NCBI GenBank assembly: GCA_903830425.1
Contig: CAIKTR010000245.1
Span: 2,501-48,961, forward strand
Length of the DNA stretch: 46,461 nt
Source of the DNA: an uncultured Opitutia bacterium
GTDB lineage: Bacteria > Verrucomicrobiota > Verrucomicrobiia > Opitutales > Opitutaceae
Direction: 5' to 3'
A program made the translations under genes and the position numbers. The notes under the pieces are model-generated. The model was not told the origin of the DNA and did not search any database. It saw only the letters and a list, made by a program, of their open reading frames with translations. Below, in pieces: positions 44,313-46,461 of this stretch (its first letter is position 1; every line of letters begins with the position of its first letter).

Positions 44313-45010
<698 letters not shown>

Positions 45011-45076
45011 CGGAAGAGTCTGGCCATGCAACACCGGAAACGGCACGAACGCTAGCGCAAGCGGCCGTTTTCCAGC

Positions 45077-45781
45077 ATGTCGCCCCGTTTCCCCTGCCTC
45101 CTCCTCTGGCTCGCCCTCGGCGCGGCCGCGCCGGCCGCGGACGCCCCCCGCACCCTCGTGTTTTTCGGCGACAGCCTCACCGCCGGCTACGGGCTCGACG
45201 ACCCCGCCACCGAGTCCTTCCCGGCCCTGATCCAGGCCCGGATCGACGCCGCCCGCCTGCCCTGGCGCACGGTCAACGCCGGCCTCAGCGGCGAGACCAC
45301 CGCGGGCGGGCTCCGGCGCGTGGAGTGGATCCTGCGGCAGCCGGTGGCGCTCTTCGTCCTCGCCCTCGGCGGCAACGACGGCCTGCGCGGCCTCGAGCCC
45401 GCCGTCACCGCCGCCAACCTCCAGGCCATCATCGACCGCGTGCACGCCCGCTCCCCCGACGCCCGCATCGTGCTCGCCGGCCTGCAGCTGCCCCCGACGA
45501 TGGGCGAGGACTACACCCGCGCCTTCGCCGCGCTCTACCCGGCGCTCGCCGCCCGGAACCGGCTGGTGCTGGTGCCCTTTCTCCTCGAGGGCGTCGGCGG
45601 CCGGGCGGAGCTCAACCAGCCCGACGGCATCCACCCCAACGCCGAGGGCACCGCCCGGGTGGCGGCCACCCTCTGGCAGACCCTGCAGCCCCTGCTCGGT
45701 CCCGCACCAGCCCCCGCGGACCAGCCGGCGCCGCCGCCCGCGCCGGGGAACAAACTTGCCTCCCCGCGGGTCCCGCGTTGA
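45077..45781 (+). CDS. tesA: SGNH-hydrolase, TesA-type arylesterase/lysophospholipase
   Basis: A 234-residue secreted esterase. A signal peptide (about 1-22) is followed by the nucleophile block GDSLTAGYG (Ser33), the oxyanion block GGNDGLRG (Asn100) and the catalytic DGIHPN (Asp183, His186). TesA hydrolyses acyl-CoA, esters and lysophospholipids in the periplasm. A Pro/Ala-rich tail (about 208-234) extends beyond the family core. The divergent ybbA-ybbP neighbours match the E. coli order. Confidence 0.92.
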   Translation: MSPRFPCLLLWLALGAAAPAADAPRTLVFFGDSLTAGYGLDDPATESFPALIQARIDAARLPWRTVNAGLSGETTAGGLRRVEWILRQPVALFVLALGGNDGLRGLEPAVTAANLQAIIDRVHARSPDARIVLAGLQLPPTMGEDYTRAFAALYPALAARNRLVLVPFLLEGVGGRAELNQPDGIHPNAEGTARVAATLWQTLQPLLGPAPAPADQPAPPPAPGNKLASPRVPR

Positions 45782-45810
45782 ATTCCCACCCAATCAATCA
45801 TCCCAACCCC

Positions 45811-46203
45811 ATGAAAAATATCCTCATCGCCCTCCTCTCCCTCTCCGCCGTCTCGTTCTCCTTCGCCGGCGGCGAAGGCTGCAAGGACAAGGCCAAGTGC
45901 GACGACAAGGACACCAAAGCCTGCTGCAAGCAGGACGCCAAGGCCTGCGCCGACAAGGACGCCAAGGCCTGCTGCAAGCAGGACACCAAGGCCTGCAAGA
46001 ACATGGACGCGAAAGCCTGCGCCGACAAAGACGCCAAGGCGTGCTGCAAACAGGACGCCAAGGCTTGTGCTGGCAAGGATGCGAAGGCCTGCGCCAACAA
46101 GGACGCCAAGAGCTGCCCTGCCAAGGATGCCAAGGCTTGTGCCAACAAGGACGCCAAGGCCTGCGCCGATGCCAAAAGCTGCAAGGCCACGGAGAGCAAG
46201 TAA
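45811..46203 (+). CDS. Secreted Cys/Lys octapeptide-repeat protein
   Basis: A 130-residue protein. A signal peptide (about 1-19, ending SFAGG) is followed by a segment with KAKCDD and then eleven 8-residue repeats of the pattern xKDAKACx (about 33-120), each 24 bp in DNA. Every unit carries one or two Cys and the mature part is very rich in Lys, Asp and Ala. The repeats suggest metal binding, disulfide bonding or an exported RiPP-like product; I recognise no named family. It starts 29 bp after tesA and is followed by tandem terminators. Confidence 0.85.
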   Translation: MKNILIALLSLSAVSFSFAGGEGCKDKAKCDDKDTKACCKQDAKACADKDAKACCKQDTKACKNMDAKACADKDAKACCKQDAKACAGKDAKACANKDAKSCPAKDAKACANKDAKACADAKSCKATESK

Positions 46204-46213
46204 CCCCGCCCTC

Positions 46214-46243
46214 GCCGGGCGGTGATCCACCGCCCGCTTTTTT
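46214..46243 (+). terminator. Terminator 1 after the Cys-repeat gene
   Basis: CGGGCGGTG (46216-46224) pairs with CACCGCCCG (46228-46236) around loop ATC, followed by CTTTTTT. Confidence 0.92.
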
Positions 46244-46244
46244 G

Positions 46245-46274
46245 ACCCGCTTCCTCCTCGGAAGCGGGTTTTTT
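46245..46274 (+). terminator. Terminator 2 after the Cys-repeat gene
   Basis: ACCCGCTTCC (46245-46254) pairs with GGAAGCGGGT (46260-46269), followed by a T run. It stands directly behind terminator 1 and separates the gene from the convergent partial gene. Confidence 0.88.
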
Positions 46275-46326
46275 ATTGGGCGAGCCCGGATGAGCCCGCG
46301 GGGCCGCCGGCCGACCGGGAGCCGCT

Positions 46327-46461
46327 TCAGTAACGCCCGTACTGGTCCACCAGCTCGCGCAGCAGGGCCACGTGCGCCGCCGGGGTGTCCGGGGCGATTG
46401 CGCAGGCGGTGCTCAGGATGAACCCGCGGGCGGTCATGCCGATCTCCAGCCGCGCGAGCAC
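46327..46461 (-). CDS. Uroporphyrinogen decarboxylase family protein, C-terminal fragment
   Basis: The last 44 residues of a minus-strand gene that extends beyond the window. The segment includes GFILSTACAIAPDTP and ends in LRELVDQYGRY and TGA. This closely follows the C-terminal part of UroD/URO-D-like methyltransferases, whose GGFILxxGCAIPPDTP region is well conserved. Whether it is HemE itself or a corrinoid methyltransferase cannot be told from this fragment. Confidence 0.65.
   Translation of the reverse strand: MLARLEIGMTARGFILSTACAIAPDTPAAHVALLRELVDQYGRY

Follow-up and report, generated by a model that had tools for sequence, protein, structure and literature searches.

What an array of short cysteine- and lysine-bearing repeats might do outside the cytoplasm is the question raised by a gene close to the end of a 46,461-nucleotide stretch of DNA from an uncultured Opitutia bacterium of the Opitutaceae (the whole of this stretch is here called the window). 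The gene runs from ATG to TAA at 45811..46203 (+) and encodes a protein of 130 aa. By inspection, and by alignment with homologues, residues 1-19 (MKNILIALLSLSAVSFSFA; 45811..45867, +) read as a Sec-type signal peptide without a lipobox, a start that suggests export of the protein. A short Cys/Lys segment (GGEGCKDKAKCD; 45868..45903, +) opens the mature chain, and alignment places a similar one in homologues. The 111 residues of the mature chain (computed pI 8.8) include 29 A, 28 K, 17 C and 17 D and are drawn solely from A, K, C, D, G, T, Q, N, S, E, M, and P, with no His, one Met, and no aromatic or branched hydrophobic residues. With a Cys fraction of 0.131 the protein ranks second among the 170 ATG-started open reading frames of at least 60 aa in the window.

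From residue 32 onward the chain consists of eleven gapless octads of the form xxD[A/T]K[A/S]Cx and a partial twelfth, the eleven being delimited by tandem-repeat and codon analysis at 45904..46167 (+), 24 bp to each. There are 12 copies of the core D[A/T]K[A/S]C, eleven of them spaced by exactly 8 residues and the twelfth lying 6 beyond; when the residues of the mature chain were shuffled 2000 times, no shuffle had more than 2. A first-pass annotation of this DNA had described a signal peptide followed by about eleven units xKDAKACx, each with one or two Cys and encoded by 24-bp tandem repeats, and this description holds. The reading frame and the eleven octads are as reported, with the signal peptide recognised by inspection, and the unit is correct as a consensus, position 2 of the octad being K in 7/11, Q in 3/11, and M in 1/11. 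Eight octads carry one Cys and three end in CC, and the DNA array shows a period of 24 bp as well as periods of 48 and 72 bp, with the top score at 72 bp. A two-octad pattern, DKDxKACC-KQDxKACx, is found three times. When the commonest codon of each octad column is taken as reference, departures in the five core columns (D-A-K-A-C) are synonymous in 11 cases and nonsynonymous in 3, against an expected synonymous share of 0.233 (P 2e-5); this calculation treats the units as independent, whereas those of a tandem array have a common history, and P serves here as a guide, not a test. Departures in the remaining three columns number 2 synonymous and 17 nonsynonymous. The core Asp, Lys, and Cys are invariant over the 11 units despite changes of codon.

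Searches with the protein returned weak matches below cut-off at most in Pfam and NCBIfam (best E 0.4 and 0.017), none of them to a metal-binding family, a single chance-level match in the PDB (E 3.5), and no match up to E 1 in PHROGs or among plasmids. A scan of genome contigs with the protein gave no relative. The own genome is a 3.5-Mb assembly in 254 contigs that is 95% complete. An AlphaFold2 model built on a 3-row alignment has a mean pLDDT of 43.8 and a pTM of 0.22; the low pLDDT would fit a disordered chain, yet so thin an alignment would give the same.

Relatives were sought within the family. The protein itself matched 6 of 199 other family genomes, one of which (G027, locus L007) was later dropped as a low-complexity match, 19% identical. 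A 7-row profile then matched 23 of 252 family genomes at E ≤0.01, the own genome counted; 14 of the 23 were dropped and nine orthologues accepted, namely G000 (the window), G141, G156, G059, G015, G170, G065, G021, and, as a weaker acceptance, G003 (E 6.6e-6). The eight other than the window protein measure 69, 69, 70, 72, 77, 77, 79, and 165 aa, and all nine have 5-28 Cys and 12-37 Lys past residue 19. Mature Cys number 5-11 in the seven short orthologues (69-79 aa), 17 in the window, and 28 in the 165-aa protein of G170, a member of the same genus as the window species. In a 7-row alignment without G170 and G003, K29, C30, C38, and C39 do not vary, and Cys are kept in orthologues spanning three genera. 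To judge from these sequences, the apparently exported Cys/Lys proteins form a real family backed by orthologues. The array of G170 is unlike the octad, with a tandem unit of 117 bp in 2.4 copies (93% matches); G021 has an internal duplication by eye, with short tandem periods; and G141 is down to 5 mature Cys with a Cys-free tail. Given a short common form and units of 24 bp in the window and 117 bp in G170, expansion has occurred on at least two occasions, with Cys and Lys multiplied in each. A search for homologues with the same repeat, as the first-pass annotation had recommended, thus found most of them without an octad array; on these alignments the array is an expansion specific to one lineage, in a Cys/Lys protein that is itself conserved. 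Homologues with Cys-free repeat units, which that annotation would have counted against its idea, were not encountered as such, most homologues being arrayless; the unit of the long array in G170 does contain Cys. A strikingly regular Cys/Lys expansion in the window species is the observation, and its function is what we infer from it.

The gene is flanked by sequences that may set the limits of its own transcript. A conserved element, GGAACAAACTTGC (45747..45759, +), begins 64 bases 5' of the start codon, within the 3' end of an esterase reading frame, and is likely a dedicated promoter or operator. Over the nine upstream regions the motif scores 146.7, and 60 shuffled sets reach 117.0 at most; shuffling does not model the shared ancestry of orthologous upstream regions. 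The pattern GGAACANNCTTGC starts 60-75 bases before the orthologue start in the window, G141, G065, G021, and G170. It has exactly one match in each of these five genomes, which were picked for carrying it, and the exact pattern is therefore no general promoter element there. About one chance copy per genome would be unsurprising, since a reversed control pattern is found 0-2 times per genome (G000 2, G141 0, G170 1, G065 1, G021 0). Degenerate copies are present in G059, G015, and G003; in G156 the motif program finds no element, and there is just CTTGC at -56. A sigma-54 reading was dropped as the GG-to-GC spacing differs among species. An ECF-sigma reading is possible, with GGAAC followed 16-18 bases later by a weak GT-like box, although by eye the species share no -10 box. 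A search of 45000-46461 gave no promoter of the sigma-70 type.

Downstream of the gene, two intrinsic terminators were identified by consensus match and folding, one with a 9-pair stem (46216..46236, +) and one with an 11-pair stem (46244..46270, +), each followed by a T run. A scan of 1462 bases gave 6 terminator-like sites against a shuffle mean of 1.6, the other four being on the minus strand within the array, and the 91-nt terminator region has a folding energy of -46.8 kcal/mol (z -5.2). By a strict rule a terminator-like site lies within 130 nt past the stop codon in 7/9 orthologues; 66 of 1800 shuffled downstream stretches pass the same rule. G015 and G170 fail it, and G170 shows by eye a longer-looped hairpin and a T run. 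The double terminator and defined transcript end proposed at first reading are thus supported. A sub-threshold Rfam match to the anti-hemB sRNA (window 46203-46277, +; 28.9 bits against a gathering score of 49.5, E 0.00023) covers both terminators and was set aside as probably a tandem-hairpin match.

The upstream neighbour in the window is a GDSL esterase gene (Lipase_GDSL_2 by Pfam, a TesA-type model being weaker and below cut-off; 45077..45781, +), for which no functional partnership is claimed, and with it on that side are ABC and permease genes. The contig ends 258 bases past the Cys/Lys gene, cutting off its downstream side. A convergent reading frame is truncated by the contig end; its C-terminal end (...STACAIAPDTPAAHVALLRELVDQYGRY) lies at 46327-46461 (-) and may resemble uroporphyrinogen-decarboxylase-like proteins. 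The orthologue has esterase and divergent ABC transporter genes in its vicinity in the window, G156, G141, G059, and G065 (tblastn) and in G170 (open reading frames), at about 2 kb in G141 and about 7 kb in G065. A VWA/YfbK-type gene, on which Pfam was run for G021 and G003 and for the corresponding gene of G059, is the convergent neighbour in G021, G170, and G003. Genes for metal transporters, metal sensors, and similar functions were looked for up to about 4 kb from the eight other orthologues, where reading-frame ends were named by eye and some checked with Pfam, and among three window neighbours tested; none was recognised.

A further aspect of the genomic setting concerns the enzymes that modify exported Cys-containing peptides. 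One account of MNIO substrates describes many exported precursors with Cys motifs, which in some types are repeated in variable number (PMC12452194). The MNIO family (PF05114) is without a match in the own genome, in the 95% complete assembly; it is found in 77 of 252 family genomes at E ≤0.001 (76 above cut-off). Within the genus it is present in 10/12 genomes; besides the own genome, G200 (83% complete) has no match. Seven of the nine orthologue genomes have an MNIO gene, located away from the Cys/Lys gene. At all eight MNIO loci fetched it is accompanied by a bufA-like precursor with CKGKxxC repeats, bufC, and doxX, and Pfam reports DUF2063 at one MNIO locus of relatives. In G156 this cassette is enclosed by a dehydrogenase before it and a GYF-like gene (named by eye) after it; G015 has an additional thioredoxin-type gene, so named by eye, separating the cassette from the GYF-like gene. 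On contig C91 of the own genome (L069:7610-9433) the same two genes stand side by side, 18 bases apart, with no cassette gene found between them; the dehydrogenase is 81% identical to that of G015. A bufA search of the whole own genome gave E 0.7 at best. The bufA-MNIO-bufC-doxX cassette is likewise absent between its usual neighbours in G021, on one contig (L171:5747-7761). Because 10/12 genus genomes have MNIO, loss of the cassette in the window species is a simpler reading than its never having been gained. An inverse relation between cassette and Cys number is unsupported: the two proteins in genomes without it have 17 and 11 Cys, but G170, with a cassette, has 28 and G015, also with one, 11.

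The best explanation of these observations, held tentatively and at a little under even chances, is that the protein is disordered and unmodified and serves as an extracytoplasmic thiol sponge for soft metals. Because no metal gene was recognised beside the gene, the metal role is one that we infer. A small, soluble, exported, and mostly disordered protein would display thiols beside lysines by means of its repeated D-A-K-A-C units; the thiols would be kept partly reduced outside the cytoplasm, and adjoining ones would take up ions of soft metals such as copper, zinc, or silver with no modification of the MNIO type. The lysines may keep the chain soluble, and more units would mean proportionally more binding capacity. 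Export, disorder, free thiols, metal binding, and the link of copy number to capacity are thus all provisional elements of the proposal. Consistent with it are two different Cys/Lys expansions, the retention of Cys in all nine orthologues, and the core codon pattern; against it stand the lack of a recognised metal gene nearby, the 5 mature Cys of G141, and the tendency of thiols exported through Sec to become oxidised. The pair of ideas with which the annotation began, an exported metal-binding or disulfide-linked protein, still leads, as it fits the Cys of 9/9 orthologues, with metal binding the part of it that no recognised neighbouring gene bears out. SilE (PMC5008109) is a periplasmic, intrinsically disordered silver sponge with repeated metal-ligand motifs, and the window protein may by analogy work as SilE does, Cys replacing His and Met. 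SilE differs in using His and Met, which the window mature chain hardly contains, and no sil-type efflux genes were recognised around the window gene. Metallothioneins are small, Cys-rich proteins with Lys beside Cys and with CC pairs, features that the window protein shares; no metallothionein model is among its Pfam and NCBIfam matches up to E 1. To our knowledge known bacterial metallothioneins are cytosolic, unlike a protein with a signal-peptide-like start. Bufferins and other MNIO precursors (Buf1/DUF2282, Buf2, Buf_EGKCG/oxazolin, CxxxxC) resemble the window protein, as described in PMC12452194, in their Sec signal peptide, their several to many Cys, and, for some types, Cys motifs repeated a variable number of times. 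They are unlike it in several ways: no MNIO, DUF2063, or DoxX gene is seen at the window locus (on its upstream side, the downstream side being cut by the contig end), the window unit is D-A-K-A-C every 8 residues in a genome where no MNIO is found, and the relatives' own bufA-like precursor is dissimilar. Among Pfam and NCBIfam matches to the protein up to E 1 there is no DUF2282, one of the published precursor profiles. The protein is not filed with bufferins, SilE, or metallothioneins because the defining features tested are not those it has. Its family is unnamed in the Pfam, NCBIfam, and PHROGs searches and was not encountered among the open-licence papers listed for exported or bacterial metallothioneins, for bufferins and MNIO enzymes, or for Cys-rich Opitutaceae proteins.

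Other readings of the same Cys are less probable. A post-translationally modified peptide, whether a relative of the MNIO-type bufferins or another enzyme's product, would have its Cys converted to copper-binding heterocycles. The MNIO genes in 7/9 orthologue genomes lend this some support, as do the many exported Cys-motif precursors known and the sizeable proportions of Buf1 and Buf2 precursors that do not adjoin an MNIO gene, as reported in PMC12452194; the same paper records very few Buf1, Buf2, and Buf_EGKCG precursors in genomes without MNIO. The missing PF05114 match in the own genome, the MNIO loci with a precursor of their own (the two compared are dissimilar to the window protein, best E 0.44), and the empty site between the cassette's usual neighbours in the window genome and G021 weigh against it, and it is judged very improbable. 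A Cys/Lys protein kept in two genomes in which no MNIO was found can exist, and probably act, unmodified by MNIO, as the window protein and that of G021 probably do. The modifying enzyme that the annotation would have had sought in the genome is not found in its MNIO form, and MNIO modification in the window genome is unlikely from these gene contents; the suggestion of a modified peptide is to that extent made unlikely for this class. A bolder extension, judged improbable, is that in Opitutaceae species without the bufA-MNIO-bufC-doxX cassette an unmodified Cys/Lys thiol sponge takes its place in buffering metals outside the cytoplasm, with capacity tuned by gain or loss of whole Cys units and with a dedicated upstream element of its own. 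If the protein does bind metal unmodified, MNIO chemistry is not a requirement for an exported metal buffer built of Cys repeats, and the family would offer a natural series of 5, 6, 7, 9, 11, 17, and 28 mature Cys in which to relate capacity to repeat number.

A disulfide-cross-linked protein of the extracytoplasmic matrix or envelope is the nearest competitor, possible but doubtful. Cys would form bonds between chains, for which their spacing of 8 residues is suitable, Lys would sit on acidic surface polymers, and repeat number would set cross-link density, possibly together with a large surface-type protein encoded beside it in relatives. Such a gene, passenger-repeat-like and with PATR and PEP-CTERM matches in the two tested with Pfam (G156 and G141), is the next downstream gene on the same strand at 5/9 loci (G156, G141, G065, G059, G015). 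However, at four of the five (G156, G141, G065, G059) a terminator-like site comes right after the Cys/Lys gene, G015 having none by rule, and the surface-type gene is not the next one in G021, G170, G003, or the window. The adjacency may also reflect shared ancestry of one locus, and the end of the neighbour in G059 is without a PEP-CTERM tail. Were the protein instead cross-linked, the Opitutaceae envelope would have a component not described before. Less probable again, and unlikely, is an exported peptide under low constraint, its array grown by replication slippage and its function not tied to repeat number. The wide spread of length and Cys number among orthologues suits this reading, as does the lack of a profile match in 6/12 genomes of the genus; a composition filter finds a Cys/Lys protein at 2 of 80 esterase loci, many from other phyla, and by eye there is none within 3.5 kb downstream of the esterase at ten of them (L070, L072, L073, L075-L077, L079-L082). 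The core codon pattern, the Cys kept through three genera, the upstream element kept while the surrounding region diverged, and the terminators in 7/9 orthologues all argue for more constraint than this.

Several of the matches left aside are of separate interest. Within the family, the matches of G147, G238, G229, G132, and G136 were dropped as short Cys proteins of uncertain kinship, those of G179, G135, G226, and G151 as small Gly/Cys peptides, and those of G066, G011, G035, G031, and G018 because the signal peptide alone matches. A phylum sample gave matches in 20 of 387 genomes, the own genome included; among them, outside the family, are four short Cys/Lys proteins of uncertain homology (L151, L152, L155, and L158), and the rest are either matched through their signal peptide only or are proteins of another kind. 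The precursor of the Opitutaceae MNIO cassette (L052-L059, e.g., L055:5818-6123, -) is a conserved exported CKGKxxC-repeat protein (MNKSTRLIITAAAMAGLYAGSL...), the one tested giving a sub-cut-off Pfam match to DUF7640, and possibly represents a distinct bufferin-like subfamily. Proteins of 71-78 aa with a signal-peptide-like start, rich in Cys and Lys and of uncertain kinship to the window family, are present at L029, L030, L031, L049, and L050, and in G147 and G132 the gene sits by eye between recR-like and dxs-like genes. At L032 (G136; match 1501-1620, -) a signal-peptide-like start and CGCGENCGCGENC are followed by a putative CusF-like copper-binding domain.
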